This document shows positions 3,851 to 63,574 of a stretch of DNA of 64,000 nucleotides, piece after piece (within the stretch, counting starts at the first letter, position 1; each line of letters opens with the position of its first letter). Source of the stretch: Demequina phytophila (GTDB lineage: Bacteria; Actinomycetota; Actinomycetes; Actinomycetales; Demequinaceae). The translations under genes and the position numbers were made by a program. The notes beneath the pieces were generated by a model. It saw nothing but the letters and a program-made list of their open reading frames with translations. It did not search any database and was not told the origin of the DNA. Where the stretch lies: assembly GCF_000971135.1 (NCBI RefSeq), contig NZ_BBLW01000004.1, forward strand, positions 1-64,000. The letters are read 5' to 3'.

Positions 3851-5337
3851 GCAACGAGCTGATGGATTCCCTCGCGCGGCAGGCGGAGGCCGGCGGCACG
3901 CTCTACGACGCGCGCGGCGGGGTGGACGATGCGGTGGTCGCCCCCGCACGCCGTCGCGTGAGGCGGGCGCACACCCTGCGCGCGGCCGGCACGCTCGGCG
4001 TGACGGCGCTGGTGCTCGCCGGCGGCCTCACGGCCGTGCTCGAGTGGCAGGGCGACCGCGGCACGGTGGCGCCGGCCGTCACCGACGTGCCGAAGGTGGA
4101 CCCGGATGCGCTGACGGCTGACGACCTCCGTCCCGACTCCACGGCCCGGACCCTCGACGACGGCCGCACCGGCCAGACCGGGATCCTGTGCTCCATGCCG
4201 GTGAAGGACAATCCGTACGCGGGCGCGGACTTCAGCCGCGCCGACTCGTGCCCGGCGGTCTGGGTCGCGGACCTACCGCTGCTCGAGGTCACCCGGGCCG
4301 ATGTCACGCTCGACGGCGACGGCACCGTGCACATCGCGTGGGTGCTCGCGAACACCTCCGACTCGGCGATCACTGTCGATGAGGGCACCTTGAGCATCGC
4401 GCTCCTGTCCGACCCCGACGCTGCGATGACCGCCGAGGGCTACACCTCGGGCGACCGCCAGCTGATCGCCACGTCGCTGTGGTCCAGCGAAGAGGATCGC
4501 GTAGTCCAGATGGAGGGCGACAGCTCGCGCGTGACGCTCCGCTCTGGGGACACGATCGAGGGCGCGGCGACTCTCGACCCGCAGATGTTCTCCGGCCTGG
4601 GCACCGGCGGGCTCCTCGACGGGATGTCCGACGGCACCATCGAGCCGACCGTGACCCTCCAGGTCCGAGTGCCCCCCGCCGGCGATGCAGGCACGCGCGA
4701 GCTGTTCCTCGAGGCGAGCGCAGTGGCCACCACCACCGGCACCATGGATCCCGCCTCCGCATCGTTCGAGGGACTCGAGCCGCGCGTCGAGGGCGAGACC
4801 CGTGACGACGCCCAGGAGGCGGTCGTGTGCCACGTCGGCGAAGCCGACAACCCACGCTTCCAGCCCGATGACGGCGACGGGGTCGCGAACTGGAGCACGC
4901 CCACCTGCGAGGCGGTGTGGATCCCGGGCGGCAAGCAGCTCGAGCTCTCCGACGTGAGCATCTCTGAGATCGACAAGTTCAGCAGCGTCATCGATTGGAG
5001 CGCGACCAACGTGTCCGGGCGGACGCTCGATCTCGACAACGCTTCGATGGGCGTGAGCATCAACCTCGGCGACGTGGGCTACATCATGAACTCCGGCGGC
5101 ACGAGCGTCGGGTGGAACCCCTGGAACAGCGACGGGACGCGCCACGCGCTGCTCTCGTCCGAGAGCGACCCGATCGCCCTCGCCCCGGGCGCCGAGCTCT
5201 CCGACGAGAAGATGTTCGAGACCGACCCCAAGACGCTCGACGCGCCCGGCTCGATCCTCATCCGCGTGGTCCGCGAGGACGACCAGGACGGCACCCGCGA
5301 GCTCCTGCTCGAGCTCCCGTGGAGCCTGAAGGGCTGA
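3847..5337 (+). CDS. single-pass membrane partner of sigma factor, cassette 2
   Basis: A 496-residue protein with a cytoplasmic N-terminus of about 45 residues (ALYDAR-type stretch, then RRRVRRAHTLR), one transmembrane helix (about 50-70), the linker TVAPAVTDVP, and the clearest two-module ectodomain of the array. Module 1 has LCSMPVKDNP...SCPAVWVADLPLLEV and ends QVRVPPAGDAGTRELFLEAS. Module 2 has VCHVGEADNPRF...TCEAVWIPG and ends GTRELLLELPW. The repeated Cys...Cys-x-x-V-W pattern suggests one disulfide per module. Family not recognised. Coupling to the sigma gene suggests it senses an extracytoplasmic or membrane signal and controls that sigma factor; this is inference from gene order. Confidence 0.75.
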   Translation: MSNELMDSLARQAEAGGTLYDARGGVDDAVVAPARRRVRRAHTLRAAGTLGVTALVLAGGLTAVLEWQGDRGTVAPAVTDVPKVDPDALTADDLRPDSTARTLDDGRTGQTGILCSMPVKDNPYAGADFSRADSCPAVWVADLPLLEVTRADVTLDGDGTVHIAWVLANTSDSAITVDEGTLSIALLSDPDAAMTAEGYTSGDRQLIATSLWSSEEDRVVQMEGDSSRVTLRSGDTIEGAATLDPQMFSGLGTGGLLDGMSDGTIEPTVTLQVRVPPAGDAGTRELFLEASAVATTTGTMDPASASFEGLEPRVEGETRDDAQEAVVCHVGEADNPRFQPDDGDGVANWSTPTCEAVWIPGGKQLELSDVSISEIDKFSSVIDWSATNVSGRTLDLDNASMGVSINLGDVGYIMNSGGTSVGWNPWNSDGTRHALLSSESDPIALAPGAELSDEKMFETDPKTLDAPGSILIRVVREDDQDGTRELLLELPWSLKG

Positions 5338-5376
5338 CCCCTAGGAACCCACCGCCGCCGGTGGCACCATCGAAGG

Positions 5377-5889
5377 ATGAGGCCATGGGCGGCGATGCTC
5401 GAGGCGACCATGCGCACGCACGGCCCCGCGCTCCTCGCCTACGCGACGCGGCTCACCGGGGGTCCGTCCGCGGGCGCGGCCGTCCTCGAGGACGCGCTGG
5501 TGCGCACGTTCGCGCGGGGCAGGCCGCCGGAGTCGGGGGACGATGCGCGGGTCGCCGTGCGCGACGCGGTCCGGTTCGTGGCGGTGCGGCGGGAGCGGCC
5601 GGCACCCGCGACCCCGCCGCCCGAGGCGACGGAGGCGCCAGAGGTGACCGACGCATCGTCCCTCCGCGAGGCGCTCGCCGGCCTGAGCCCGCGAGAGCGG
5701 GCGCTGCTCGCCATCCGCTACGGCGACGGCCTCGCCGTCCCCGCGATCGCGTCCTCGACCGCGCTCCGCGAGCACCAGGTGCGCGACGCCCTCGCGAACG
5801 CCGCGGCGGCTCTGGGCCTGGATGTGTCGGACACGGTCGAGGGCGGCGTGGTCGACACCACCACCGTGGCGGTGGGTGACGCGCCGTGA
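5377..5889 (+). CDS. degenerate sigma-70-like protein, cassette 3
   Basis: A 170-residue paralogue of the sigma factors at 1228 and 3293. The start ATG 5377 matches their N-terminus (MRPWAAMLEATMRTHG). Region 4 is recognisable (LSPRERALLAIRYGDGLAVPAIA...) and the tail DVSDTVEGG is kept. Region 2 is badly eroded: the core-binding AEDLVQ motif is replaced by GAAVLEDALV, and the -10 recognition helix AHAYVKRAIQTxFIDxxRRA is gone. It may be a decaying sigma gene, or a protein using only the C-terminal DNA-binding helix. GGAACCC at 5344, 33 bp upstream of the start, resembles an ECF -35 element. ATGA overlap with the next gene is retained, so the pair is still coupled. Confidence 0.72.
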   Translation: MRPWAAMLEATMRTHGPALLAYATRLTGGPSAGAAVLEDALVRTFARGRPPESGDDARVAVRDAVRFVAVRRERPAPATPPPEATEAPEVTDASSLREALAGLSPRERALLAIRYGDGLAVPAIASSTALREHQVRDALANAAAALGLDVSDTVEGGVVDTTTVAVGDAP

Positions 5890-7503: not shown

Positions 7504-8028
7504 TTGAGCGGTCGATCGGAGACGCTCCGCGCGGTGATGCGCGGCCACGGCGCGGACCTGCTGGCCCGCGCGCTCCTTCTCACGGGGGACGATGCTGCGG
7601 CCGGGTCGCTGGTCGAGCGCGCCCTCGCGCACGGGACGGGCCGCGGCCACCTGGCCGACTCCCCCGACGAGGCGGCCACCGAGGTGCGGCGCGCGCTGCA
7701 TCGTGCCTTCCGCCGTGACAAGGACGCTGAACCGCCCCTTACTCCCGTCACGGATCCGGACCCGACCCCTGAGGCCGACATCCGCGAGGCGCTCCGGCTG
7801 CTCACGCGCCGCGAGCGGGTGGCGTTGGTGCTGCGCTATCTGGACGAGATGGCGGCGACGGCGATCGCCGCCGAGCTCGACGTGTCCGTCAAGGCCGTGG
7901 TGGCGGACCTGCGCTCGGGCGCCGAGCGCCTCGCGGCCACCCGGCCCGACCTCCGGATCGACGTCGAGGACGCGGTCGAGGGCGGGGTCGAGGAGGAGCT
8001 CACCGTGGCGTTCGGGGCGCGCCGATGA
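7504..8028 (+). CDS. degenerate sigma-70-like protein, cassette 4
   Basis: A 174-residue paralogue of the array sigma factors. TTG 7504 was chosen as start because GGGGGG lies just upstream and the product then begins SGRSETLRAVMRGHG, aligned with its sisters. Region 4 is conserved (LTRRERVALVLRYLDEMAATAIAAELDVSVKAVVADL), as is the tail DVEDAVEGG. Region 2 has lost its signature: AGSLVERALAHG replaces AEDLVQEAL, and the -10 recognition helix is replaced by TEVRRALHRAFRRDKDAE. It is therefore doubtful as a promoter-melting sigma factor. It overlaps the following membrane-protein gene by ATGA. Confidence 0.7.
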   Translation: MSGRSETLRAVMRGHGADLLARALLLTGDDAAAGSLVERALAHGTGRGHLADSPDEAATEVRRALHRAFRRDKDAEPPLTPVTDPDPTPEADIREALRLLTRRERVALVLRYLDEMAATAIAAELDVSVKAVVADLRSGAERLAATRPDLRIDVEDAVEGGVEEELTVAFGARR

Positions 8029-10208: not shown

Positions 10209-10249
10209 GCGACCACTGTAGGCGCGGCGTCCGACGCCACCCGCGCATC

Positions 10250-10267
10250 GTCCCCAACCTTGGGGAC
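10250..10267. promoter_or_regulatory. 18-bp perfect palindrome upstream of cassette 5
   Basis: GTCCCCAACCTTGGGGAC is an 8-bp inverted repeat around CC in the divergent gap between the YgjP-like gene and the fifth sigma gene, 42 bp before its ATG. It overlaps a GCATCGTCC copy of the dispersed motif. It could be an operator for either gene; no binding protein can be named. Confidence 0.45.
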
Positions 10268-10308: not shown

Positions 10309-10860
10309 ATGAGCACCTGGGCGAGCATGCTCGACCGCCTGGTCCGCGAGCGCGGGCCCGCGCTGTTCGGCTATGCGTACGTGCTGACCGGCGACCGAGA
10401 GCGCGCGGAGGACCTGCTGCAGGATGCGCTGGTGCGCACCTTCCGCACGGGGCGGGCGCTCGGGTCGCTCGACTCGGCGCATGCGTATGTCAAGCGGTCC
10501 ATCACCACGGCGTTCATCGACTCGGGGCGGCGCGCGGCGGCACGGCCGCAGCCCGCAGGCGTCGACGTGCACGAGCGGCCCGACGTCGCGAGCGCTCCCG
10601 ACGCGTCCGGCACGGTGGACGATGCGCTGGACCTGCAGGCCGCCCTTCTCACCTTGTCGCCGCGCGAGCGGGCGTGCGTGGTGCTGCGCTACCTCGAGGA
10701 CATGACGGTCGCCGGCGTCGCGCAGGCGCTCGGGCTGGCCGAGGGCACCGTCAAGCGCTACCTGTCCGACGGCGTGGCCCGCCTGCGCGAGGCGGCGCCC
10801 GGAGTCGACTTCACCCCCGCCGAGACCGTCCCGATCCATCCGCATGGAGGCACATCATGA
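10309..10860 (+). CDS. SigE-family (ECF-like) sigma factor, cassette 5
   Basis: A 183-residue sigma-70 family protein with both functional regions intact. Region 2: LFGYAYVLTGD, AEDLLQDALVRTF, AHAYVKRSITTAFIDSGRRAA. Region 4: LSPRERACVVLRYLEDMT and the helix-turn-helix VAQALGLAEGTVKRYLSDG. The ATG 10309 has GAGAGGGAA upstream. It lacks the DxxDAxEGG tail of the other four. It is coupled by ATGA to a membrane protein whose ectodomain is MltG-like rather than the cysteine-pair type, so this cassette has exchanged its sensor part. Confidence 0.9.
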   Translation: MSTWASMLDRLVRERGPALFGYAYVLTGDRERAEDLLQDALVRTFRTGRALGSLDSAHAYVKRSITTAFIDSGRRAAARPQPAGVDVHERPDVASAPDASGTVDDALDLQAALLTLSPRERACVVLRYLEDMTVAGVAQALGLAEGTVKRYLSDGVARLREAAPGVDFTPAETVPIHPHGGTS

Positions 10861-11816: not shown

Positions 11817-12941
11817 TCAGCCCTCGGGCGCGGGGACCACCTCGCGGGTCCACCCGTGGCGGTCCTCGGCGCGGCCGTACTGGATGTCGGTGAGCAGCGC
11901 GCGCATCGCGGTCGCGACGGACGGGCCGTCCTCCTCCGAGCGCTCGGGCAGCGAGACGTCGAGGTCGTCGGAGACCAGGCGCGCGATCGGGGTCACCACG
12001 GCGGCGGTGCCCACGGCGAACAGCTCGGCGATGTCGCCGGACTCGATGCCCTCGACCAGCTCCGTCAGCGCGATGTCGCGCTCCTCGACCGTGCGGCCCT
12101 CGTCACGGAGAAGCGTGAGGATCGAGTCGCGGGTGACGCCAGGAAGGATGGTGCCGGACAGGCGGGGCGTGAGGATGGACCCGTCCGCGCGCACCGCGAC
12201 CAGGTTCATGCCGCCGAGCTCCTCGACGTAGGTGTCCTCACGCGCGTCGAGGAACAGCACCTGCCCGCAGCCATGCTCCTTCGCCTCCTTCTGCGGCAGC
12301 ATGCTGGCGGCGTAGTTGCCGGCGGTCTTGGTGTCGCCCGTGCCGCCCGCATTGGCGCGGTGGTAGCCGCGCGAGACCCAGATCGAGACGCCCACGTCGC
12401 CGTTCGACAGGTAGTCGCCCACAGGCGACGCGGTCACGATGAAGTCGACCTCCGCGGCGGGCTGCACCAGCAGGCTGGCTTCGGTCGCGATGACCAGGGG
12501 GCGCAGGTACAGGCTCGCTCCCTCGGCGCCCGCCACCCAGTTCTGGTCGGCCTCGACCAGCGCCTCGACGGCCGCGAGGAAGTCCTCCTCCGACACCTCG
12601 GGCAGCGCCATGCGGCGGCAGCTCGACGCGAGGCGCGCGGCGTTGGCCTCCGGACGGAACAGGCGGATCGATCCGTCCTCCCAGCGGTACGCCTTGAGGC
12701 CTTCGAAGGCCTGCTGGGCGTAGTGGAGCACGGCGGCGCCGGGGTGCATCGGGATGGGGGCCAGCGGGACGATGCGGCGGTCGGCCCAGCCGTCCTCCTC
12801 GCGCCAGGTGGCACGCGCCATGTGGTCGGTGAAGACCTTGCCGAAGACCGGGTCCTCCATCGCGATCCAGCGCTCCTCGTCCGTCGCGGGACGACGGTTG
12901 GGGATGACGGTGAACTGTGCGGTGGGCGCCTGCGTCTCCAT
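11817..12941 (-). CDS. ilvE: branched-chain amino acid aminotransferase (first copy)
   Basis: A 374-residue fold-type IV PLP enzyme that transaminates 2-keto acids to Ile, Leu and Val in the cytoplasm. The lysine that binds PLP is K205 in GTGDTKTAGNYAASML. Other family marks: HYAQQAFEGLKAYR near 73-87, LYLRPL near 144, EELGGMNL near 241, and GIESGDIAEL...GTAAVVTPIA near 305-325. A second ilvE lies at 22372. The two differ around the active lysine (TGDTKTAGN against TGAAKCGGN), so they may differ in substrate. It is last in the - strand run beginning at the toxin-antitoxin genes and converges on cassette 5. Confidence 0.95.
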   Translation of the reverse strand: METQAPTAQFTVIPNRRPATDEERWIAMEDPVFGKVFTDHMARATWREEDGWADRRIVPLAPIPMHPGAAVLHYAQQAFEGLKAYRWEDGSIRLFRPEANAARLASSCRRMALPEVSEEDFLAAVEALVEADQNWVAGAEGASLYLRPLVIATEASLLVQPAAEVDFIVTASPVGDYLSNGDVGVSIWVSRGYHRANAGGTGDTKTAGNYAASMLPQKEAKEHGCGQVLFLDAREDTYVEELGGMNLVAVRADGSILTPRLSGTILPGVTRDSILTLLRDEGRTVEERDIALTELVEGIESGDIAELFAVGTAAVVTPIARLVSDDLDVSLPERSEEDGPSVATAMRALLTDIQYGRAEDRHGWTREVVPAPEG

Positions 12942-13916: not shown

Positions 13917-14798
13917 CTACAGTTGGATCCGTCCGGGACGGGCAGCAGGGCCCTTGGGCTCGGGCTCGGTCGGCTCAGCCGCCTTCGAGGAGACCACGTT
14001 CGCGGCGGTCGCGTCGGCGAGGTCCGCGAGCGGGATCGCGTGGTCGATCCGGGCCCAGTTGCGCTTGAAGTCGGCGGCGATCGCCGCCTCGACGTCGCGC
14101 TCGACGGCCCGCGCCGCGCTCTTCCCGCTGTCGCCGCCCTCGTGCTTGGCGGTCGCAAGCCGCGTCGCGGCCGCGAGTCGGAGGTCACGGACCGTCCACC
14201 AGTGGTCGACGAACGCGTCGCGCGCGTCGTGCAGCAGCTGCTGCGCCCGCCGGTACCGGACGATCTCGGCGACCAGAGCATCGTCCCCCGTCATGGCCGC
14301 GTGGGCCTCGGGGTTGTCGATGCGCGGGATGACGTCGGCGGGCGTCGGGTCCTTGAGGATCGCCTGCCGCGCGAGCTTGGTCACCAGCTTGTGCTCGAGG
14401 GTCTGCGGGGCGGCCGCCATGACCGTCTCGATGCGCAGGTCGAGCGCGCGTCCGCGCACGGTCATGTCCTCGAGCGCGCGGCTGATCTCGAGCAGCATGT
14501 CGATGGCGGGGACGGCCTCGCGCTGGCGGGTGGTGCCGCGCTCGAGGCGCGCCACCTGCTCGCGCAGGCCGCGGGTGATCTCCTCGGCGGGGACCAGCGA
14601 GGTGGGGTCCTTGGGCAGCGGCGGGGTGAGCAGGTCGTGCGCGCTGGACAGGGCGATCGGCGCCTCCTGCGCGAAGGCGCGGCGTCGGGTACGGCGCTCC
14701 TCGACGCGGCGCGACAGGTCCATGAAGCCCCCCACCGACGCGCCCGCGAACAGGGCGATGATCAGGCCGGGGACCAGGAACGACCAGTCGATCGACAT
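13917..14798 (-). CDS. membrane-anchored hypothetical protein
   Basis: A 293-residue protein of unrecognised family. A hydrophobic N-terminal helix (about 6-25, WSFLVPGLIIALFAGASVGGF) is followed by a charged segment RRVEERRTRRR and a long alpha-helical body rich in Ala, Arg and Glu with no cysteine. The C-terminus is Pro-rich (PEPKGPAARPG). The layout suggests one membrane anchor with a cytoplasmic helical domain. Probably in one transcript with the YrdB-like gene. Confidence 0.65.
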   Translation of the reverse strand: MSIDWSFLVPGLIIALFAGASVGGFMDLSRRVEERRTRRRAFAQEAPIALSSAHDLLTPPLPKDPTSLVPAEEITRGLREQVARLERGTTRQREAVPAIDMLLEISRALEDMTVRGRALDLRIETVMAAAPQTLEHKLVTKLARQAILKDPTPADVIPRIDNPEAHAAMTGDDALVAEIVRYRRAQQLLHDARDAFVDHWWTVRDLRLAAATRLATAKHEGGDSGKSAARAVERDVEAAIAADFKRNWARIDHAIPLADLADATAANVVSSKAAEPTEPEPKGPAARPGRIQL

Positions 14799-15846: not shown

Positions 15847-16497
15847 CTACACCTGGTTCACGCGCTCCACGCCCGGCAGGATCGCGGCGAGCTCGCCGCG
15901 GGTGGTGCGCTTGCCGTAGGCGGGGGTGTCGCGCTCGACCCGCCATGACTCGGCGAGCGGGCCGACGTCGACCGAGTCGTAGCCGATGGCGTCGAGGAAC
16001 GACGCGACCAGGCTCTTGGCGGCGGCATCGTCACCCGCGATCGGGAGGGCACGGCGGTCGGGCGTGAGCGCCGGGCTGCCATGGGTGGGGATCTCGGCTG
16101 CGTAGATGTTGTTGAAGGCCTTCACCACGCGCGCACCGGGGACCAGGTCCTGCAGCAGCTGCGAGGTGGTCCTGCTGTTGTCGTCGAGCGCCGGGATGCG
16201 ACCGTCGCGCTGCGGGTAGTAGTTGTTCGCGTCCATCACCACCTTGCCCCGGAGCGCTTGGACCGGTATCGCGTCCTCCAGCTTGCCCAGCGGGACGGCG
16301 ACGAGGACGAGGTCGCCGGCGGCCGCGGCCTCGGCGGCGGTGGCGGCGCTCGCGTGGGGGCCGAGCTCCGCGACCAGGTCTCCGAGCGTAGCGGGGCCGC
16401 GCGAGTTGGAGAGGACAACGTCGTAGCCCGCCGCGACGGCGGCGCGAGCGACGTTGGCGCCGATGCGCCCAGAACCGATGAAGCCGATGGTGGTCAT
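15847..16497 (-). CDS. NADPH-dependent F420 reductase-like oxidoreductase
   Basis: A 216-residue Rossmann protein beginning MTTIGFIGSGRIGANVARAA, with a GxGxxG dinucleotide site at residues 7-12. VLVAVPLGKLEDAI, VVMDANNYYP and VVKAFNNIYAAEI follow, the conserved blocks of the NADPH:F420 reductase / YqkL-like family. Such enzymes transfer hydride between NADP and a cofactor such as F420, or act as general NAD(P)-binding reductases. The start ATG 16497 begins the Rossmann strand directly. It is divergent from vsr across a gap carrying a GGGACGATGCG copy. Confidence 0.82.
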   Translation of the reverse strand: MTTIGFIGSGRIGANVARAAVAAGYDVVLSNSRGPATLGDLVAELGPHASAATAAEAAAAGDLVLVAVPLGKLEDAIPVQALRGKVVMDANNYYPQRDGRIPALDDNSRTTSQLLQDLVPGARVVKAFNNIYAAEIPTHGSPALTPDRRALPIAGDDAAAKSLVASFLDAIGYDSVDVGPLAESWRVERDTPAYGKRTTRGELAAILPGVERVNQV

Positions 16498-16618
16498 GGT
16501 GGGCGCAACCGGAAGCTGGCGGCGGGTATTCCGAGGGACGATGCGGGGGCTAGCTTCTCGCGGCGGGTTCCGTGAAGCTGCCGGCAAGAGTTCACAGCTC
16601 ACGTCATAGCCTTGGAGG

Positions 16619-17065: not shown

Positions 17066-17141
17066 GCCCGCGCGACCCGAGCATCGTCCCCCACCGAGCG
17101 AACCCTGCACGCGCTCGCGATCCGGTGCCTATCCTGGCGAT

Positions 17142-18661: not shown

Positions 18662-18696
18662 ATGACATTGCCACCAGGGACGATGCGCGGTCCGGT

Positions 18697-20513: not shown

Positions 20514-20596
20514 GGTGGCCCTCCCCGACGTCGCATGACCCCGTCAGGCTACGTCGAACCTCCGACACGGTGGAGGTCAGGGGGACGATGCGGCCG

Positions 20597-21642: not shown

Positions 21643-21788
21643 CTCGCCGTTTTCATGCACTCCCGCGAGCGCGCGAGGGCCTCCGCTGCCGTTCAGAAGG
21701 GTGCTCGGGGCGACCACAAGCTCACCAGGCGTCGCCACAGGCGGTGACCGCCGCATCGTCCCCCGCCAAAGTGCATGAAAACGGCGAG
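21643..21788. repeat. inverted-repeat-bounded intergenic element, copy 1
   Basis: CTCGCCGTTTTCATGCACT (21643-21661) and its exact reverse complement (21770-21788) enclose 108 bp. The same 19-bp ends enclose a different core at 39589-39808. The AT-rich centre of each end stands out in this genome. A GCATCGTCCCC copy of the dispersed motif lies just inside the right end. No open reading frame or transposase is inside. It occupies most of the 290-bp gap between a hydrolase gene and a PEBP gene, both - strand. It could be a miniature inverted-repeat element or a regulatory DNA site. Confidence 0.7.
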
Positions 21789-22278: not shown

Positions 22279-22371
22279 AGGCTCCTCCTTGAATGCGGCT
22301 CCGCCACCCATCTTGCAGGCGCGACGCGCCGGACGCGAGCATGGCGCGCGCCCGGCGCGTGCATCGTCCCG

Positions 22372-30681: not shown

Positions 30682-31800
<1,119 letters not shown>

Positions 31801-39883: not shown

Positions 39884-40285
39884 CTACCGGGTCTGCGGGA
39901 TCTCCATGCCCGGGGCATCGTCGGGGCGCGGGACGAACCCGTGGCGCGCGTAGAACGGCGCGCGGCCGCGCGCCGCGAACAGCTGGATCTGCGTCACGCC
40001 CGCCGACGCGGCGAGGGCGACCAGGCGGCGCAGGATCTCCGCGCCGACCCCGGCACCGCGCGCGTCCTCGCGCACGATCATCTCGTTGACATACGCGTGC
40101 ATCGCCCCGTCGGAGATCATCCGGCCGACCCCCACCAGCGCTCCCTCGGCGTCGCGCGCCGAGCACACCGCCCAGCTGCCCGCGAGCGCCCGCGCGCAGT
40201 GCTCCTCGGTGGGCGAGCCCCAGCCCGTCGCGAGGTACAGCGTGCGGAACTCTGTCGCCGCCGGCGGGTCCATCGAGTAGTCCAT
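39884..40285 (-). CDS. GNAT-family N-acetyltransferase
   Basis: A 133-residue acetyltransferase. The acetyl-CoA loop is VREDARGAGVGAEILRRLVALA near 71-92 (R/Q-x-x-G-x-G/A). The preceding beta-strand AYVNEMIV and the following IQLFAARGRAPFYARHGFVPRPDD complete the fold. Short but full-length for small GNATs. Substrate unknown. Its start region is divergent from the PHO-box promoter of the next gene. Confidence 0.88.
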   Translation of the reverse strand: MDYSMDPPAATEFRTLYLATGWGSPTEEHCARALAGSWAVCSARDAEGALVGVGRMISDGAMHAYVNEMIVREDARGAGVGAEILRRLVALAASAGVTQIQLFAARGRAPFYARHGFVPRPDDAPGMEIPQTR

Positions 40286-43779: not shown

Positions 43780-43821
43780 CGGCGCCCGCGCCGCCGCATC
43801 GTCCCCCTGCGAGCCCACTTG

Positions 43822-50753: not shown

Positions 50754-50901
50754 CGCACCTCCCCAGTGCTCGCCAGTATTCCGCACCGCTCCCCCTCGCA
50801 TGGACAGGCCACGCCCCTCCCGGGCGCCCGCCGCCACACCGCGCGGAAGCCCGCCGCGGCATCGTCCCGCGCCCGCTTTGACGAGACCCTCTCGCGGGTA
50901 T

Positions 50902-52269: not shown

Positions 52270-53697
52270 ATGACGCTCGTCGCCGGAGTCGACTCCTCCA
52301 CCCAGTCCTGCAAGGTGGTGATCCGCGACCTCGAGACGGGCACCGTGGTCCGGCAGGGACGCGCCTCCCACCCCGACGGCACCGCCGTGGACCCCGAGCG
52401 GTGGTGGGACGCCCTGCTGAGCGCGATCGGGCAGGCCGGCGGGCTCGCCGACGTCGGCGCGATCTCCGTGGGCGGGCAGCAGCACGGCATGGTCGCACTC
52501 GACTCCGACGGCGTGGCGGTCCACGACGCGCTGCTGTGGAACGACACGCGCTCCGCCGGTGCCGCCGCCGACCTCATCGCGGAGCTCGGTGCGGAGACGC
52601 TCGCCGAGCGCACCGGCCTGGTGCCCGTGGCCTCCTTCACCTCGACCAAGCTCCGCTGGCTCCGCGACGCCGAACCCGCCCTCGCCGCCCGCGTCGCCGC
52701 CGTCGCTCTCCCCCACGACTGGCTGACCTGGCGCCTGCGCGGCTACGGGCCCGCGGCATCGTCCCCGCTGGGTCCCGTGCTCGAGGAGCTCACCACCGAC
52801 CGCTCGGACGCGTCGGGCACCGGCTACTGGAGCGCCGCCACCGGCGAGTACGACCGCGAGCTGCTCGCCGCCGCGCTCGGGCACGATGCGGTGGTCCCAC
52901 GGGTGCTCGGTCCGGGCGATCGCGCGGGCACCGTTCACGCCGACATCGCGCACCGCGACGACTGCGTGGTGGGCCCCGGTGCCGGCGACAACGCCGCGGC
53001 CGGCCTGGGGCTCGGCGCCACCGTGGGCGATGTGGTGATCTCCCTGGGCACCTCGGGCACGGTGTTCGCGGTGACGGAGACGTCCGTGCCGGACCCGACC
53101 GGCACCGTGGCGGGCTTCGCATCCGCATCGGGCGAGTTCCTTCCCCTGGTGTGCACGCTCAACGCGGCACGCGTGCTCGACTCCTTCGCGCGCGTCCTCG
53201 GCGTCACCCACGACGAGCTCGGCGAGCTCGCCCTGGCCGCCTCCCCCGGCGCCGACGGCGCCACGCTCGTCCCGTACTTCGAGGGCGAGCGCACGCCCAA
53301 CCTCCCCACGGCCACAGCGTCCCTCACGGGTCTGACACTCGCCTCGACCACGCGCGAGAACCTCGCCCGCGCGGCCATCGAGGGGATGCTGTGCGCGCAG
53401 GGCGTGGGGCTCGACGCGATCCTCGCGCAGGGCGTCGCGGCCAAGCGCCTGCTGCTGGTCGGAGGCGCGGCGCAGAACCCGGCCGTGCAGGCCATCGCGG
53501 CACAGGTGTTCGACGTGCCGGTGGAGATTCCCGAGCCAGGCGAGTACGTTGCGGCGGGAGCGGCCGTGCAGGCGGCGTGGGCCCTCACAGGCGCGCGTCC
53601 CTCGTGGCCGCTCGCGGTGGTGGCAGCACCTGCCCTGGACTCGCGCCCCGGCATCCGGGACGCGTACGACGCGGCGGCATCCGCATACGTGGCCTAG
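52270..53697 (+). CDS. xylB: xylulokinase
   Basis: A 475-residue FGGY-family kinase that phosphorylates D-xylulose. The ATP-fold start [18 protein letters not shown], substrate motif [11 protein letters not shown] near 73, LLWNDTRS near 93, and the catalytic aspartate in [15 protein letters not shown] near 236-250 are present, as is the signature [21 protein letters not shown] near 398. It lies 127 nt after xylA on the same strand. A GGCATCGTCCCC copy writes the residues AASSP in a loop before the FGGY domain-1 [14 protein letters not shown] block. Confidence 0.97.
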
Positions 53698-53783: not shown

Positions 53784-53828
53784 GTTCTGCGCGGGACGAT
53801 GCGCAGGGCGGCTATGCGCGAACGACGC

Positions 53829-54608: not shown

Positions 54609-54802
54609 GGTGATGCTCCCGTCAGGGGGCCGTCGCCGTCGACGCCCCGCTCACGTCAGGATAGGCACGCACGCGCCCGGGTGCCGCGGCGAGGCCGGCG
54701 AGCGGCGCATCGTCCCTCGCCAGGCGGCTGTCGGAGCGCGCGCGTAGTGTCAGCGAGTGGGGGGCCGACGAGGGCCCGGGTCGACCGAGGAGGGCCCGCT
54801 TC

Positions 54803-56149
54803 ATGACCGTCAGCTTCGTGCTCGAGGCCGTCGTGGTGCTCGCGTGCATCGTGCTGGGCACGCGTGCCGGCGGCGTGGGCGTCGGCGTGTGGGGCGGCGT
54901 CGGCACGTTCATCCTCATCTTCGTGTTCGGCGAGGCGCCCGGCGAGGCTCCGGCAGCGGCCATCGCGATCATCCTCGGCGTCGTGACCGCGGCCGCGCTC
55001 ATGCAGGCCGCCGGCGGCATCGACTGGATGGTCGCCATGGCGGCGAAGGTGATCGAGAAACGCCCCAGGCAGATCACCCTCATCGCGCCGCTGACGGCGT
55101 TCCTGCTGTGCGCGGGGGCCGGCACCGGCAACGTCGTGTACCCGCTGCTGCCGGTGGTCTACGACCTGTCCGTGAAGAACGGGATCCGGCCGGCGCGGCC
55201 GCTCACGGTGACCGTCGTGCAGTCGGGCATCGCGCTCGCGGCCTCCCCCGTCTCCGCCGCGATGGCGGCGATGCTCACGCTCACCGACGTCGCGCCCTAC
55301 AACCTGGGGCTCGCGCAGATCCTCGCGATCACGTTCCCGGCGTGCGTGATCGGCATCGTCGTCACCGCCCTCGTGGTCAACCGCATGTGGAAGGACATGG
55401 ACGACGACCCGGAGATCCAGGCACGCATCGCCGCCGGCGCGCTCGAGGCGCCGCGGGACGATGCCGGGGGCACCGCATCGTCCCGTCTCACCTACACGGC
55501 ACGGGGCCGCAACTCGGCGATCATGTTCCTCATCGGGGTCGCGGCGATCGTGCTGTTCGGCATCTTCGAGAACCTGCGCCCGTCCTACTTGGTCGACGGT
55601 GAGACGGTGCGGATCGACATGACCAACACGATCGTGCTGGTGATGTTCGTGGTGAGCGCGGCGATCATCCTGGTGGGGCGGCCGAAGGTCGCGTCGGTAC
55701 CGGACCAGTCGGTGTTCAAGGCCGGCATGGTCGCCGCGATCGCGCTGTTCGGGATCGCGTGGCTGACCGCCACGTTCATCGCGGCGCACGAGGAGTACAT
55801 CGTGTCGACGGTGGGCGCGTGGGTCACGGACTGGCGGTTCCTGTTCGCGGTGGCGGTGTTCCTGGTCGCCGCGATGACCACCAGCCAGTCGACCGCGACG
55901 CGGACCATCGTGCCGATCGGGCTCGCGGCGGGGCTGCCCGCCGGGGTGGTGACCGGCATGTGGGCGGGCGCGCTCGGCGGTGTCTACACGCTGCCAGCCA
56001 ACGGCCCGCAGATCGCGGCCGCGAACTTCGACCTCACCGGCTCCACCAAGCTCGGCACGAAGCTCCTGGACCACAGCTTCTTCGTGCCGATGCTGATCCT
56101 GTCCGTCAGTACGATCGTCGCCGGCGCGGTGATCGGCGCGTTCTTCTAG
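54803..56149 (+). CDS. Dcu-type anaerobic C4-dicarboxylate transporter family protein
   Basis: A 448-residue membrane protein with about ten to twelve helices and family blocks of DcuA/DcuB: LGTRAGGVGVGVWGGVGTFILIFVFG near 18-43, LMQAAGGIDWMVAMAAKVIEKRPRQITLIAPLTAFLLCAGAGTGNVVYPLLPVV near 66-115, and GIRPARPLTVTVVQSGIALAASPVSAAMAA near 130-160. Dcu proteins exchange fumarate, succinate, aspartate or malate. The central cytoplasmic loop (near 215-235) contains an inverted pair of the dispersed motif writing RDDAGGTASSR. Followed 26 nt later by a dipeptidase, so the substrate here may be an amino acid or peptide-derived acid. Confidence 0.85.
   Translation: MTVSFVLEAVVVLACIVLGTRAGGVGVGVWGGVGTFILIFVFGEAPGEAPAAAIAIILGVVTAAALMQAAGGIDWMVAMAAKVIEKRPRQITLIAPLTAFLLCAGAGTGNVVYPLLPVVYDLSVKNGIRPARPLTVTVVQSGIALAASPVSAAMAAMLTLTDVAPYNLGLAQILAITFPACVIGIVVTALVVNRMWKDMDDDPEIQARIAAGALEAPRDDAGGTASSRLTYTARGRNSAIMFLIGVAAIVLFGIFENLRPSYLVDGETVRIDMTNTIVLVMFVVSAAIILVGRPKVASVPDQSVFKAGMVAAIALFGIAWLTATFIAAHEEYIVSTVGAWVTDWRFLFAVAVFLVAAMTTSQSTATRTIVPIGLAAGLPAGVVTGMWAGALGGVYTLPANGPQIAAANFDLTGSTKLGTKLLDHSFFVPMLILSVSTIVAGAVIGAFF
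55456..55484. repeat. inverted pair of the GGGACGATGC motif inside the transporter gene
   Basis: GGGACGATGC (55456-55465) faces GCATCGTCCC (55475-55484) with 9 nt between. It is in frame in the large cytoplasmic loop. The encoded RDDAGGTASS parallels RDDAVAGVAASS in the TolB-like gene. Confidence 0.85.
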
Positions 56150-56175: not shown

Positions 56176-57519
56176 ATGCCCGCAGCGGAGATCCAGGAGA
56201 AGGTCAGGGCGCTCATGCCCGGCGTGATCGAGGACCTCAAGGAGCTCATCTCGATCCCGTCGATCGCGTTCCCCGGCTATCCCGAGGAGCCCATGCATCG
56301 CATGGCCGAGCGCACCCTCGAGCTGTTCCGCGAGGCCGGCTTCACGGATGCGCACTACGGCGACGTGCCGCACGGCTACCCGCCGATCTACGCGGAGCTG
56401 CCCGGCCCTCCCGGGTCCCCGGTCGTGGTGCTGTACGCGCACTACGACGTGCAGCCGGCCCCCGAGTCGCAGGGCTGGACGTCGGACCCGTTCATGGCGA
56501 CGGTCAAGGACGACGGACGCATCTACGGCCGCGGCGCCGCCGACGACAAGTCGGGCCTGGCCACACACCTGGGCACGCTGCGCGCGTTCGACGGGAAGCC
56601 GCCGGTCACCATCCGGCTCATCCTCGAGGGCATGGAGGAGACCGAGAGCAACCTCGAGGAGTTCGTCGAGGCCAACCCCGATCTGTTCCAGTGCGACCTC
56701 TTCGTCATCTGCGACATGGGCAACCTGGTGTCCGCCGAGCCCGTGCTCACCACCGCGCTGCGCGGCGACGTGTCCTGTGTGGTGACGGTGCGCACGCTCG
56801 AGCACCCGCTCCACTCCGGGGTCTTCGGCGGCGCCGCGCCGGACGCGATGATGGCGCTCGCGCGCCTCCTGTCCAGCCTGGTGGACGATGCCGGGGACGT
56901 GGCCGTCGCGGGCGTCTCGGGCGGCGCGTGGTCGGGTGCGGTGCAGAGCGAGGAGAGCTTCCTCGAGGGGGTGCCGCTGCTCGACGGGGTGTCGCTCATC
57001 GGCACCGGCACCATCTCCGACCGGCTGTGGGCGAAGCCTTCGATCAACGCGATCGGCGTCGACACCACGTCGATCGCGGGGTCCTCGAACGTGATCCTCC
57101 CGCAGGCGTCCGCGAAGATCTCCATGCGGATCGTGCCCGGCTCGAACCCCGAGGCGGAGCTGGACGCCCTGGTCGCGCACCTCGAGAGCCACGCGCCGTG
57201 GGGCGCACAGGTGTCCGTGCGCCGGATCAAGGCGGCGCCCGCGTTCCTGGTCCCTGGCGGCGGCCCCGGCGTCGAGGCCGCGCGTGCCGCGATGGAGGAG
57301 GCGTTCGGCGCCGAGGCGTCGGAGGTGGGCTCCGGCGGGTCGATCCCGCTGCTCCAGACGCTCCACGAGGCGTGCCCGGCCGCGGAGTTCGTGCTGTGGG
57401 GCCCCGAGGACATGGAGAAGTCGCGCATCCACGCGTCGGACGAGTCGGTGGACCCCGCCGAGATCGAGCGCATGGTGGTGGCGCAGGCGCTGCTGCTCGA
57501 GCGGCTCGCCCACGGCTGA
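56176..57519 (+). CDS. M20-family dipeptidase
   Basis: A 447-residue zinc dipeptidase of the M20 (ArgE/DapE/CNDP) family. Metal ligands: VVLYAHYDVQPAP (His) near 90-102, GRIYGRGAADDKSG (bridging Asp) near 118-131, EGMEETES (Glu base and ligand) near 157-164, CDMG near 180, and the final His in SRIHASDESV near 418-427. It is likely cytoplasmic and cuts dipeptides. It follows the Dcu-type transporter gene by 26 nt in the same operon, suggesting uptake or exchange of the released amino acids. Confidence 0.93.
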   Translation: MPAAEIQEKVRALMPGVIEDLKELISIPSIAFPGYPEEPMHRMAERTLELFREAGFTDAHYGDVPHGYPPIYAELPGPPGSPVVVLYAHYDVQPAPESQGWTSDPFMATVKDDGRIYGRGAADDKSGLATHLGTLRAFDGKPPVTIRLILEGMEETESNLEEFVEANPDLFQCDLFVICDMGNLVSAEPVLTTALRGDVSCVVTVRTLEHPLHSGVFGGAAPDAMMALARLLSSLVDDAGDVAVAGVSGGAWSGAVQSEESFLEGVPLLDGVSLIGTGTISDRLWAKPSINAIGVDTTSIAGSSNVILPQASAKISMRIVPGSNPEAELDALVAHLESHAPWGAQVSVRRIKAAPAFLVPGGGPGVEAARAAMEEAFGAEASEVGSGGSIPLLQTLHEACPAAEFVLWGPEDMEKSRIHASDESVDPAEIERMVVAQALLLERLAHG

Positions 57520-57536: not shown

Positions 57537-59597
57537 TCAGGCCTCCTCGGGCTTGAGGCTCACGCGCCGCAGCAGCTGCGCGTTCAGCGCGACGACGATC
57601 GTCGAGAGGCTCATCGCGATCGCGGCGACGGCGGGCGGCATCGTGATGCCGGCCCACTGCAGCGCGCCCGCCGCGACCGGGATCGCGACCGCGTTGTAGC
57701 CGGTCGCCCAGACGAGGTTCTGGCGCATCTTGCGGTAGCTCGCGCGGGACAGCTCGATCACGCCGACCACTCCGCGCGGGTCGGAGCTCGCCAGGACCAC
57801 CCCGGCGGCCTCCATCGCCACGTCCGTCCCCGCGCCGATCGCGAGGCCCACGTCGGCGCGCGCCAGGGCGGGCGCATCGTTCACCCCGTCGCCCACCATC
57901 GCCACGCGCTTCCCGCGGCTCTGGAGGTCGCCCACGGCCTTGTCCTTGTCATCGGGAAGGACCTCGGCGAAGACGTCGTCGATGCCGAGCTCCGCCGCGA
58001 CAGCGTTGGCGACGGCCGCGGAGTCGCCGGTGATGAGCGCGACGGCGATGCCCCGGGCGTGGAGGGCGTCCACGGCCTGGCGGGACTCGGGCCGGATCGG
58101 ATCCGCCGTGGTGAAGGCGCCCACCACCTCCCCGCCCGCCACCACGTAGAGGACGGCGCCGCCCTTGTCGCGCCACCCGGCCGCCGCATCGTCCAGGCTG
58201 CCGGGGGCGGTGACGCCCAGGTGGTCGAGCAGGCTCGGCCCACCCACGGCGACGGCCTGGCCGTCGACGGTGGCGCGCACGCCGCGCCCGGGGAGGGTCT
58301 CGACGTCCTCGGGGCTGGCGATGGTGAGGTCGCGGCCCTTCGCCGCCGCGACCACGGCGCGCCCGATCGGGTGCTCCGCATCGGACTCGACGGCCGCGGC
58401 GAGCGCGAGCATCCGGTCCTCGTCCCAGCCGTCGACGGTCGCGACGCCGGTGAGCTCGTGGGAGCCCTCGGTGAGGGTGCCGGTCTTGTCGAACAGGACG
58501 GCGTCGACGGTGCGCATCGCCTCGAGCGCGGCGGTGTCCTTGATGAGGATGCCCTGCTTGGCGGAGCTCGAGGTGGCGATCGCGATCACCAGCGGGATCG
58601 CGAGGCCGAGCGCGTGGGGGCACGCGATCACGAGAACCGAGACCGCCGCGGACAGGCCCTGCGCGGGCTCCCCCGCGAAGACGTGGGCGACGAAGGTGAT
58701 CGCCGCCGCCGCGAGGGCGATCCAGAAGAGCCAGGCGGCAGCACGGTCGGCGAGCCGGCGGGTGCCCGAGCGGCTGTCCTGGGCCTCCTGCACCATCCGC
58801 TGGATCCCGGCGAGCGCGGTCTCGTCGCCGGTGGCAGTCACCTCGATGCGGAGGGAGCCGTCGGTGGCGACGGTGCCGGCGACCACGCGATCACCCTCGT
58901 CCTTGGCCACGGGAGCGGACTCGCCGGTGATCATCGACTCGTCGACGCTGGCGCGGCCCTTCTTGATGGTGCCGTCGGCCGGGACCCGACCGCCCGGTCG
59001 CACCACCACCACGTCACCCGTCGTCAGCTCGGCTAGCCCCACGTGCTCGGTGCCGCCGTCCGCGGTGGTGCGCTCCGCATCGTCCGGAAGGAGCTCGGCG
59101 AGCGCCGCGAGGGCGCCGCGCGCCTGACCCACCGCCTTCATCTCCTGCCAGTGACCCAGCAGCATCACGACGATCAGCGCGGCGAGCTCCCACCAGAAGC
59201 TCAGGTCGCCGATGCCGAGGGTGCTCGCTGCGGAGGCTCCGAATGCCACGGTGATCGCGAGCGAGATGAGGGTCATCATGCCGGGCTTGCGGGCGGTGAT
59301 CTCGTCGCGCCAGGCCATGCTGAGGAACGGCCAGCCACCCCAGGCGTAGATCACGGTGCCCAGCAGGGGCGGGATCCAGGCGCTGCCGGGAAGGTCGTAG
59401 CCCAGCCATCCCTCGACCATCTCGCTGGTCGCGATCACCGGGATCGCGAGCAGAAGGTTCCACCAGAAGAGGCGCCGGAACAGGTCCGCGTGGCCGCTGT
59501 GATCGGTGCCGTGGTGGGCGTGCGCGTCGTGTCCGGTGTGCTCGGCATGGCGGTGTGCCGGCGCCTCGTGCGACATGGTCGCGTGGTCGTGTGCCAT
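57537..59597 (-). CDS. copB: CopB-type copper-transporting P1B ATPase
   Basis: A 686-residue heavy-metal P-type ATPase of the inner membrane. A histidine-rich tail covers residues 2-37. The transmembrane metal site is CPH near 324 (CopB class) instead of CPC. Actuator TGES is near 211, the phosphorylation site DKTGTLTEG near 367, the HP motif [11 protein letters not shown] near 405, and the hinge [20 protein letters not shown] near 560. CPH-type pumps export copper or silver. A CueR-type operator precedes it. The upstream GGACCTCC-like region gives a good ribosome binding site (GAGGTCC on the - strand). Confidence 0.93.
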
Positions 59598-59738: not shown

Positions 59739-61256
59739 ATGGATGCAGCACACCTGTTCGATGACTCGCCTGGCGGCTCTGGCGCCGGGTTCGCGTCGGC
59801 GTGTGTGGATGCCCGGGTCGCGGTGGGGACGATGCGTGCGCTGGCTTCCGTGGGCGGCTCGCCGGATGCGGTCGAACGGTTCGCGGCGGCGGCGCAGGTC
59901 GCCGCCGAGATGGACCTGGTCCTCGCACGTACCGCGCGCGATATCGAGGTCCAGTCCGATGTGCCCGGGGGTGGGCTCGCGAAGCGTCATGGCTTCCGCT
60001 GCGCGGCCGATCTGGTCGCGTCGCGGATGGGGACTCACAAGGCTGAGGCTGTCCGTCTGATCGAGGTCGGACGTGCGCTCGAGGAGCGCGAGAAGGGTGG
60101 CACGCCCAAGCCTGATCCTGAGCCGGATCCCGATGAGCCGGATCCCGATGAACCCGATGACGGTCCGGATCCTGATGATCCCGAGGGCAACGATCCTCCC
60201 GAGCCGCAGGGCCCTCAGCCCACCCCTCAGGTGCGCTACCGCGCGATCGTGACCGAGGCGCTCGACGCGGGACAGATCTCCGCGGATTGCGGGTCGCAGA
60301 TCCTCATCATGCTCGACTCGCTGTCGGAGGACGTGACGGATGAGGCGAAGGAGGAGGCCGCAGCCGACCTCGTCAAGCGCGCCCAGGGGTTGGATTCGGG
60401 CAAGTTCGCCTCGATCGTGCGCGGTTTCAAGGCCGCGCTGGACGTGGAGCAGCATGAGCGCACCCTGGCCCAGAAGCGTCGGGAACGGTATCTGAAGATC
60501 TGGAACAACCGTGAGGGCATGGTCGAGCTCCACGGCGTGCTCGATCCCGAGACCGCCGCACCCCTACAAGCAGCGTTGAGCAAGCGCGTCGGTGACGCGA
60601 TCCACGCCAGCCGCAACACCCCCGGCGAGGACGTCCGCACCACCGAGCAGATGCGAGCCGACGCGCTAGCCGACCTCGCCCGCCACGCCCTGGGCTGCGA
60701 GACCACCACCGCCTTGTTCGGCACCACCACCGTCGTCGTCCGCGCCACCGCAGCCGACCTCGAATCCGGCACAGGCCTAGCTGAGGTCGACGGCTGTGCC
60801 ACACCCATCGGGATGAGCATCGCGTTGCGCATGGCCGCCACCGCGATCATCGTGCCCGCCCTCGTAGGCACCCAGGGCGAGCTGCTCAAGCTCGGACACC
60901 GCATCTACCCGTTCTCCAAGGCTCAACGCATCGCCCTGGGCGAGCGTGACGGCGGCTGCGCGAAGTGCGGAGCACCCCCGGCATGGGCAGAAGCTCACCA
61001 CATCATCTTCTGGTCCAGAGGCGGCCCCACGAACCTGTCCAACGGGGCACTTCTTTGCTCCCACTGTCACCACGTGATCCATGATCAGGGCTGGCAGATC
61101 AGGGCCACCGACACCGAGATCTGGTTCATCCCACCCGCCACCGTCGACCCCACGCGGACACCCTGGCAAGGCGGACGAGCACGCTTCGGCACCCCCCGAC
61201 CCTGGAACAAGAAGGCCACCACCGACAGCGACGATTCCGCCCGCCCGCCCACATAG
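59739..61256 (+). CDS. DUF222 / HNH endonuclease domain protein (13E12-like)
   Basis: A 505-residue protein of the DUF222-HNH family, abundant as paralogues in actinobacteria. DUF222 covers about residues 20-330. The HNH nuclease at 407-450 has CAKCGAPPAWAEAHHIIFWSRGGPTNLSNGALLCSHCHHVIH, with zinc cysteines and the catalytic HH. Between residues 120 and 165 there is an acidic proline-rich repeat of the D-P-D-E-P type, written by GGATCC/GATGAG-rich DNA with more A/T-ending codons than neighbours. The gene could be acquired or a mobile paralogue. ATG 59739 starts the conserved MDAAHLF. A GGGGACGATGCG copy is read in the G-T-M-R frame. Confidence 0.88.
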   Translation: MDAAHLFDDSPGGSGAGFASACVDARVAVGTMRALASVGGSPDAVERFAAAAQVAAEMDLVLARTARDIEVQSDVPGGGLAKRHGFRCAADLVASRMGTHKAEAVRLIEVGRALEEREKGGTPKPDPEPDPDEPDPDEPDDGPDPDDPEGNDPPEPQGPQPTPQVRYRAIVTEALDAGQISADCGSQILIMLDSLSEDVTDEAKEEAAADLVKRAQGLDSGKFASIVRGFKAALDVEQHERTLAQKRRERYLKIWNNREGMVELHGVLDPETAAPLQAALSKRVGDAIHASRNTPGEDVRTTEQMRADALADLARHALGCETTTALFGTTTVVVRATAADLESGTGLAEVDGCATPIGMSIALRMAATAIIVPALVGTQGELLKLGHRIYPFSKAQRIALGERDGGCAKCGAPPAWAEAHHIIFWSRGGPTNLSNGALLCSHCHHVIHDQGWQIRATDTEIWFIPPATVDPTRTPWQGGRARFGTPRPWNKKATTDSDDSARPPT

Positions 61257-62031: not shown

Positions 62032-62056
62032 TCTCGAGGCTCCTCGGGTTCCGGGA

Positions 62057-63574
62057 TCAGCCCTCGACGCCCGCGCGCTGCAGGATGATCTCCCGCACCC
62101 GCCCGGCATCGGCCTGGCCGCGCGTGGCCTTCATCACCGCGCCCACGATCGCGCCCGCGGCCTGGACCTTGCCGTCCTGGATCTTGGCGAGCACGTCGGG
62201 CTGGGCGGCCAAAGCATCGTCCACGGCCTTCTCGAGCGCCGAGTCGTCGGACACGACCTCGAGACCACGGGAGGCGACCACCTCGGAGGGCGAGCCCTCG
62301 CCCGCGAGGACGCCCTCGAGCGCCTGGCGCGCGAGCTTGTCGTTGATCTTGCCGGAGTCGATGAGCCCCTGGAGCTCCGCGATCCCGGCCGGCGTGACGG
62401 GCAGCGCGGCGAGCGCGACCTCACGGTCGTTCGCGACGCGCGACAGCTCGCCCATCCACCACTTGCGCGCGGCCTGGGCCGACGTGCCGGCGGCCACTGT
62501 CGACGCGATGAGGTCCAACGCGTCCGCGGCCACGGCGTCGCGCATCTCCAGGTCGGAGAAGCCCCACTCCTCGCGCAGGCGGGCCCGCATCTTGGCGGGG
62601 TGCTCGGGGATGGTGCCCCGCAGCTCCTCGACCCACTCGCGGGCCGGCTCGACCGGCAGCAGGTCCGGCTCGGGGAAGTAGCGGTAGTCCTCCGCCTCCT
62701 CCTTGGAGCGGCCCGGCGTGGTCGAAGACGTGTCCTCGTGCCAGTGGCGGGTCTCCTGCACCACGGGCTTACCCGCGAGCAGCAGCGACGCCTGACGCGA
62801 GGCCTCGAACCGCACCGCGCGCTCGATGGCACGCAGCGAGTTGACGTTCTTGGTCTCGGAGCGCTTGCCGAACGGGACGTCGTCCTGCGACTCCCCCGCG
62901 ACCCCCTTGGGACGCAGCGACAGGTTGACGTCGGCACGCACCGAGCCCTGCTCCATGCGGCCGTCGGAGATGCCCAGGCCCCGCACGATGTCGCGGATGG
63001 TCGCGACGTAGGCGCGCGCCACCTCGGCGGTCCGGTCGCCCATGCCCGTGATGGGCTTGGTCACGATCTCGACCAACGGCACACCGCCGCGGTTGTAGTC
63101 GACCAGCGAGTAGTCGGCGCCCTGGATGCCGCCCGAGCCACCTACGTGGGTGTTCTTTCCGGCGTCCTCCTCCATGTGCGCGCGCTCGATGGCGACCGTC
63201 ACCACGGTGCCGTCGTCGAGGACCACGTCGAGCGAGCCCTCGTAGCACGTCGGCTCGTCGTACTGCGAGATCTGGTAGTCCTTCGAGAGGTCCGGGTAGA
63301 AGTAGTTCTTCCGGGCGAAGCGCGACGACTCGCGGATCGAGCACCCCAGGGCGAGGCCCAGGCGGATCGCCGACTCCACGGCCTTCTGGTTGGTCACCGG
63401 CATCGCGCCGGGAAGCCCCAGGCAGACCGGGCACACCTGCGTGTTCGGCTCCGCGCCGAACTCGTTGGCGCAGCCGCAGAACATCTTCGTCTTGGTGTTG
63501 AGCTCGACGTGGACCTCGATGCCGAAGACCGGGTCGAACTCCTCCATCGCCTGCTCGTACGTCATCGTGGTCAC
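62057..63574 (-). CDS. gatB: aspartyl/glutamyl-tRNA amidotransferase subunit B
   Basis: A 505-residue GatB, the kinase/tRNA-binding subunit of the amidotransferase that makes Gln-tRNA and Asn-tRNA from misacylated forms. [21 protein letters not shown] near 16 is the family start, with zinc cysteines in CGCANEF and [13 protein letters not shown]. Active-site blocks [18 protein letters not shown] and the C-terminal YqeY-like helical domain are present. GTG 63574 overlaps the gatA stop by four bases (GTGA), with GGAGGT upstream; ATG 63565 is the alternative. Confidence 0.97.

Follow-up and report, generated by a model that had tools for sequence, protein, structure and literature searches.

What is the function of a short word iterated throughout the genome of an actinobacterium? 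The question is raised by 64,000 nucleotides of Demequina phytophila DNA (the whole stretch analysed, hereafter the window: positions 1 to 64,000 of contig NZ_BBLW01000004.1), in which the eight-letter word GACGATGC and its nine-letter form GGACGATGC recur in genes and gaps alike. The signal is real, genome-wide and acting at the DNA level, and it exists in genus-wide dialects. We consider it probable that GGACGATGC is a DNA uptake sequence, one with dialects across the genus, and that the system it belongs to arose independently of the two already described.

Abundance and placement of the word

The window holds 53 copies of GACGATGC or its complement (25 on the plus strand, 28 on the minus), 51 of them inside 3925-62221, against 7.25 ± 2.70 and a maximum of 14 in 100 dinucleotide shuffles. 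An earlier sequence-only reading had counted 47 and expected about 2: the strong excess stands, but both figures were too low. The excess rises with word length, from 46 copies of GGACGATGC against 1.9 expected under an order-3 model of the window, to 28 against 0.43 for GGGACGATGC and 19 against 0.17 for GGGACGATGCG. Across the 2.98-Mb genome (G000; 2,984,965 bases in 12 contigs), GACGATGC occurs 1,966 times and GGACGATGC 1,538 times, divided between the strands as 996 + 970 and 772 + 766, in agreement with the balanced orientation described earlier; the reversed-word controls gave 29 + 29 (total 58) and 9 + 12.

Our own simple gene caller found 58 genes in the window; 23 of them contain 34 sites, and the other 19 sites fall in 15 gaps. 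The earlier estimates were about 28 genes and at least 14 gaps. Sites within genes do force avoided codons, as had been proposed: they contain 17 GAT and 9 GCA, both minority codons (148 of 1,349 Asp codons and 147 of 2,881 Ala codons in window genes). When synonymous codons were shuffled within each called gene, only 2.7 ± 1.3 (maximum 7, n=100) of the 28 copies of GGACGATGC in the window's genes remained, and 23.0 ± 4.0 (40 shuffles) of 174 in the 465 called genes of a 504-kb sample of the genome: an excess of 7-10 fold. Because so little survives shuffling, we conclude that DNA, not protein or codon usage, is conserved. Genic sites fall in several reading frames and in both orientations, 89 with the gene and 85 against. 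The sequence-only reading had named two outcomes that would tell against it, and neither was borne out: in-gene and genome-wide counts lie far above the codon-aware expectation and the reversed-word control, and sites are spread over many genes and gaps, not limited to one repeated gene family.

The word has a sharp core. In 912.5 kb of G000 we counted 503 exact copies of GGACGATGC against 43 expected under an order-4 model, an expectation itself inflated by the word's own copies. Of its 27 one-mismatch words, 21 did not exceed expectation, and ratios of observed to expected ran from 0 to 2.8. A logo built from 330 GACGATGC sites reads GGGGACGATGCGC.GGTCG, with a nine-base core and weaker positions on either side; informative flanks extend to about 18 bases, and the logo has no conserved sequence beyond. 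GGACGATGC differs from its own complement and is hence non-palindromic.

Placement was analysed in the same 504 kb (23 stretches, 276 sites), where 174 sites lie in genes and 102 between them; density is about five times higher between genes (1.90 per kb) than within them (0.39 per kb). Among the 95 of 102 intergenic sites that could be typed by gap, density is highest in convergent gaps (3.39 per kb), followed by codirectional (2.51) and divergent ones (1.50). Spacing over a contiguous 440 kb is near random (coefficient of variation 1.03, mean 1.8 kb, largest gap 10.1 kb), and close neighbours are strongly oriented: of 25 pairs at most 80 bases apart, 19 are head to head, three ++, two -- and one tail to tail. 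Low G+C is no more than a proxy for foreign origin, but five-kb pieces below 0.69 are poor in the word: their combined 60 kb contain 16 sites, roughly half the overall density of 0.55 per kb. One low-G+C region with few sites, at about 109-120 kb of G000 contig C12, contains genes that by eye resemble type I restriction-modification and helicase genes.

Dialects, descent and individual sites

Counting three words across 119 genomes, 44 of them Demequina and 75 from outside the genus, revealed distinct dialects. Dialect A, GGACGATGC, occurs in 16 of the 44 Demequina genomes at 929-1,864 copies, with 37-141 C words; dialect B, GGCCGATGC, occurs in 20 at 409-2,018 copies, with 83-275 A words. The two align as GG-A-CGATGC and GG-C-CGATGC, and dialect C has CCGACGC in place of B's CCGATGC. 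Three genomes carry the C form: G009 clearly, G003 and G012 more weakly. In G009, k-mer counts made with no prior word yielded overlapping words reading CCACAGCGTCGGGCA, complement TGCCCGACGCTGTGG. The B word is also present in six A-type genomes at 394-664 copies, G022 having the highest count.

The B and C words, too, exceed synonymous shuffles (n=30): 59 against 10.6 for B in G015, 41 against 4.9 for B in a set of 12 B loci (genes as called, the caller covering 58% of the set), and 41 against 4.0 for C in G009. The caller also covers about half of G003 and fails in the low-G+C genomes G010 and G098. B is weak in G018 (409 copies) and G007 (472); an order-4 model on 140 kb of G018 did not bring the word out, though it stands above synonymous shuffles there (14 against 3.3). 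No clear word was found in five of the 44, namely G001, G013, G027 and G032, with 40-120 kb of each scanned, and G005, judged on counts alone; G005, G027 and G032 were initially placed in dialect C, an assignment we dropped.

Outside Demequina, A words reach at most 203 per genome, except in G098 with 399, and B words up to 434, in the 7.8-Mb genome G107. G098, from another family (f20), has 599 copies of GGMCGATGC, and in 105 kb (loci L015, L016, L291-L293, L245) it holds 12 copies of GGACGATGCC against 0.49 expected and 16 of CGATGCCGTC against 0.78; these iterated words, similar in look, may be a further dialect. G341 (family f11) has 1,929 GGMCGATGC, far above its congeners and, among the places listed (loci L294-L323), mostly GGCCGATGC. 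We set it aside as a dialect outside the genus: 43 GGCCGATGC sites from 30 loci had no clear conserved flanks, and its abundance is probably codon usage.

Dialects mostly follow phylogeny. In a tree of six conserved proteins from 34 taxa, eight A taxa form one clade and 11 of 15 B taxa another, each with support 1.000; of the remaining four B taxa, G042 and G021 are deep branches, and the weak G018 and G007 lie beside the C taxa. Labels for lignilytica, NBRC 110055, NBRC 110056 and B12 rest on one 21-kb locus each, and the long branch of G009 is due to split genes. Orthologous sites were compared by aligning the pilus loci of nine A taxa with those of 15 'B' taxa; one of the 'B' loci (L121) belongs to G044 of another genus. 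Of 519 comparisons of A sites with 'B' taxa, 17 were unchanged, 44 differed by one base and 458 by more; random aligned 9-mers were unchanged in 5,158 of 38,759 cases. Among the 44 one-base changes, 37 were exactly the A-to-B base, none contributed by L121.

Other repeated strings were noted alongside the dialect words. In G001, one of the genomes without a clear word, the palindrome ATCGCGAT is raised on both strands (loci L001, L017-L020; 36 copies against 7.4 under an order-3 and 38 against 13 under an order-4 model). Overlapping k-mers revealed AGTGCATGAAAACGG at about nine copies in 464 kb of G000 (the window and L037-L056), and a string around GTACGCACATGAGCGTC at six to seven copies in 100 kb of G009 (L006, L025-L028).

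Individual window sites, called by match to GACGATGC, are given in the table. The pair at 31766 ends about 5 bases short of the stop end of a minus-strand gene at 31801-32322. Separately, 1258-11807 contains five tandem pairs, each a short gene resembling an extracytoplasmic-function sigma factor (about 164-185 aa) followed by a gene of 316-547 aa, named by eye.

Table. Sites and head-to-head pairs in the 64-kb window, with gene or gap status from our own simple gene caller.
Feature	Placement	Coordinates	Strand	Hairpin
GACGATGC site	in gene	1895..1902	+	
GACGATGC site	in gene	2028..2035	-	
GACGATGC site	in gene	3925..3932	+	
GACGATGC site	in gene	5539..5546	+	
GACGATGC site	in gene	5653..5660	-	
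GACGATGC site	in gene	7588..7595	+	
GACGATGC site	intergenic	10245..10252	-	
GACGATGC site	in gene	10618..10625	+	
GACGATGC site	in gene	12768..12775	+	
GACGATGC site	in gene	14278..14285	-	
GACGATGC site	in gene	16025..16032	-	
GACGATGC site	intergenic	16537..16544	+	
GACGATGC site	intergenic	17081..17088	-	
GACGATGC site	intergenic	18679..18686	+	
GACGATGC site	intergenic	20584..20591	+	
GACGATGC site	intergenic	21753..21760	-	
GACGATGC site	intergenic	22361..22368	-	
GACGATGC site	in gene	23459..23466	+	
GACGATGC site	in gene	23686..23693	-	
GACGATGC site	in gene	28367..28374	+	
GACGATGC site	in gene	29907..29914	-	
head-to-head pair	intergenic	31766..31794	31766 +, 31787 -	-37 kcal/mol, z -6.4
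GACGATGC site	intergenic	34474..34481	-	
GACGATGC site	in gene	34887..34894	+	
head-to-head pair	in gene	37437..37468	37437 +, 37461 -	z -2.0
GACGATGC site	intergenic	39496..39503	+	
GACGATGC site	intergenic	39543..39550	+	
head-to-head GACGATGC pair	intergenic	39659..39679	39659 + (without leading G), 39672 -	z -2.3
GACGATGC site	in gene	39915..39922	-	
GACGATGC site	in gene	40727..40734	-	
GACGATGC site	in gene	42373..42380	-	
GACGATGC site	in gene	42588..42595	+	
GACGATGC site	in gene	42822..42829	+	
GACGATGC site	intergenic	43796..43803	-	
GACGATGC site	in gene	45874..45881	-	
GACGATGC site	in gene	46694..46701	+	
GACGATGC site	in gene	47191..47198	+	
GACGATGC site	in gene	47363..47370	-	
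GACGATGC site	intergenic	50859..50866	-	
GACGATGC site	in gene	52756..52763	-	
GACGATGC site	intergenic	53795..53802	+	
GACGATGC site	intergenic	54707..54714	-	
GACGATGC site	in gene	55353..55360	-	
head-to-head pair	in gene	55457..55482	55457 +, 55475 -	z -3.3
GACGATGC site	in gene	56884..56891	+	
GACGATGC site	in gene	58186..58193	-	
GACGATGC site	in gene	59077..59084	-	
GACGATGC site	intergenic	59828..59835	+	
GACGATGC site	in gene	62214..62221	-	

Machinery, receptor candidates and the case for uptake

Competence machinery is nearly universal among the Demequina searched. Searches of 49 genomes, 31 of them Demequina, found a PilB-type ATPase, N-methyl pilins and DprA in all 31 and ComEC in 30, the exception being G005, an 85% complete assembly. 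ComEC is split in G009, but so are several other genes of that genome, AlaS, PilC and MltG among them, and we discount the split as assembly error. G000 has the com and type IV pilus genes that the sequence-only reading had proposed looking for: besides the PilB-type ATPase, pilins and DprA, a comE locus encodes ComEA (SLBB and HHH_3 domains) and ComEC (Competence and Lactamase_B domains). Its pilus locus L081 runs PilB, PilT, PilC, PilA, three pilin-like genes, PilD, PilM, PilN, PilO, names that except for PilB and PilA rest on gene order and resemblance. Across type IV pilus loci L081 and L083-L098, the minor pilins and the PilN/PilO region exist in two divergent versions; these cut across dialects, and we rejected the pilus-locus minor pilins as dialect reader.

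A pilin gene outside the pilus locus, the lone pilin, is found in 21 of the 31 Demequina. Among six genomes whose neighbours were listed, it lies beside a metE-like gene (named by eye) in G000, G001, G002 and G004. A protein search gave 26 matches at 54-91% identity over at least 90% of the length, and the ten with an organism name are all Demequina; a profile also recovered weaker full-length relatives in other families. G000 is close to D. silvatica, which has a lone pilin 91% identical and a PilB 99% identical to its own, and G025 has a pilin identical to that of D. silvatica. The protein has one invariant cysteine pair. Foldseek with a model of the D. silvatica ortholog (P0001; mean predicted local distance difference test score 84) gave no match in the PDB at E <= 0.001, its best being a pseudopilus chain at E 0.53. 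Neither the electropositive stripe nor the two disulfides of a ComP-type receptor were found in the lone pilin.

Under the uptake reading, the word would be a self-label recognised by the type IV pilus and ComEA/ComEC machinery during natural transformation. Cells would take up fragments in their own dialect better than others, and recombination of this preferred DNA would build up copies by molecular drive, to which selection may add. Altered receptor specificity would then rewrite a genome's dialect. We favour this reading because it accounts jointly for density, balance, pairing and dialects, which no rival we considered does as simply.

Several observations weigh against it. G001 and G027 have no clear motif and retain ComEC, PilB, DprA and the lone pilin, and among the 18 genomes from other families in a PF00437 search, eight gave a PilB-type match scoring over 400 bits although they contain no more than 54-99 copies of GGACGATGC. 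Known DNA-binding pilins are described as electropositive in the consulted part of PMC12616744. The lone pilin is strongly acidic (mature isoelectric point (pI) 4.1, net charge -13) and its identity to that of G000 is unsorted by dialect (A-type 40-68%, B-type 38-60%), leaving it a weak candidate for a ComP-like receptor; in the A-type genomes G011, G020 and G026, moreover, the best lone-pilin match lies within the pilus locus. There is no shared basic candidate, since 39 of 42 pilins from 14 pilus loci have pI below 7 and only three, the third pilin of G000, G017 and G009, lie above it. Along the contiguous 440 kb, site density and G+C were not significantly correlated (rho 0.35, P 0.11). In the tree G004 (A) stands apart as sister to G001, and the 37 A-to-B changes come from only three independent places. 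Finally, no report of natural transformation in Demequina was found in the open-licence literature. We hold our confidence to the probable because motif-less sisters retain the machinery, uptake itself is a prediction and the pilins scanned yielded no convincing reader protein.

Alternative explanations and known systems

The alternative that survives best, which we nevertheless think unlikely, is that the word is bound inside the cell by a cytoplasmic protein whose specificity drifts by clade, the word following; such a protein might organise the nucleoid or chromosome, or be an orphan methyltransferase. The sharp core would suit any specific DNA-binding protein, the persistence of competence genes in motif-less species fits, and HIP1 of cyanobacteria is a precedent, a highly iterated short word tied to methyltransferases in the portion of PMC4390886 consulted. 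HIP1, however, is palindromic, whereas the Demequina word is non-palindromic and clade-variable. Some 18 informative bases are long for methyltransferase recognition, and the head-to-head pairs and intergenic excess match the habit of uptake sequences.

A signal for recombination or chromosome segregation running along the replichores, in the manner of Chi or of KOPS (FtsK-orienting polar sequences), would share with our word its high copy number and its non-palindromic eight to nine bases. Chi and KOPS are strongly polar, however, and here strand use is roughly equal across the 23 stretches (chi2 6.8), and in the contiguous 440 kb the strand of a site correlates neither with GC skew (rho 0.17, P 0.46) nor with the direction of genes (rho -0.10, P 0.65). 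The lack of polarity weakens the Chi-like precedent raised by the sequence-only reading and makes this explanation improbable.

We give still less credence to a dispersed element, whether REP-like (repetitive extragenic) palindromes or intrinsic terminators spreading between genes. The 19 head-to-head pairs are hairpin-capable, one in the window folding at z -6.4; seven lie wholly within genes, and eight of the other 12 are at most 30 bases from a stop codon. Most sites, however, are single, 174 of 276 lie inside genes, and nothing is shared beyond the 18-base logo, which also undermines the earlier comparison with REP elements; no run of four T was found in the 12 bases after each pair, on the plus-strand side. 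Codon usage or mutation bias, which may explain the copies in unrelated G341, is very improbable as the source of the word in Demequina, where the in-gene excess survives synonymous shuffling, density is higher in gaps than in genes, and most words one mismatch away show no excess.

If GGACGATGC is an uptake sequence, Demequina would be naturally transformable and would offer a third natural replicate: 36 genomes in two main dialects, a few motif-less sisters, and strains in culture collections, making dialect change, receptor evolution and species barriers directly testable. This bears on whether self-specific uptake is a peculiarity of families or a general outcome of competence, a question that stands because it has been described from only two Gram-negative families, whose words are unrelated; uptake sequences are confined to these in the review passages seen (PMC5031613), and the requirement is termed unique to them in the sections consulted of a research paper (PMC3630211). 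We found no reports of uptake sequences in Gram-positives or Actinobacteria in the open-licence literature, most subscription journals and preprints lying outside that scope. We would put it at slightly better than even that this is a third independently evolved self-specific uptake system, that no Gram-positive phylum had yielded one before, that its dialects, three or more, act as species mating barriers, and that its receptor is unlike the known basic minor pilins.

Among actinobacteria, Micrococcus luteus has comEA and comEC, as Demequina does, but its competence uses Flp/Tad pili, unlike that predicted here; the consulted part of that account makes no mention of an uptake sequence (PMC6370729). 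The DNA uptake sequence (DUS) of Neisseriaceae is closer: thousands of copies, inverted pairs, permissive intergenic regions, dialects tracking core-genome phylogeny and a type IV pilus, all with parallels in Demequina (PMC3630211, in part). The position of the lone pilin away from the pilus locus recalls Neisseriaceae ComP. The Demequina word, by contrast, is unrelated to DUS, its host is a Gram-positive actinobacterium, no basic ComP-like pilin was found among the pilins scanned, and uptake is a prediction. The uptake signal sequence (USS) of Pasteurellaceae has weaker flanking positions, as our word does, but these are A/T-rich and those of Demequina are G+C-rich. The two words are unrelated in sequence and alike in a nine-base core, many copies and dialects (PMC5031613, in part), and the USS receptor, ComN/PpdA, is likewise only predicted in the text available from PMC12616744. 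The type IV filament and ComEC machinery common to these systems is present in Demequina, including its motif-less species. The sequence-only reading had offered uptake as one of several functions, and genome-wide tests support that analogy: the Demequina word is like the words of Neisseriaceae and Pasteurellaceae in each of its genomic features that gave a clear result, namely copy number and density, core length, an excess that codon usage does not explain, equal use of the strands, enrichment between genes, head-to-head pairing and the existence of dialects.

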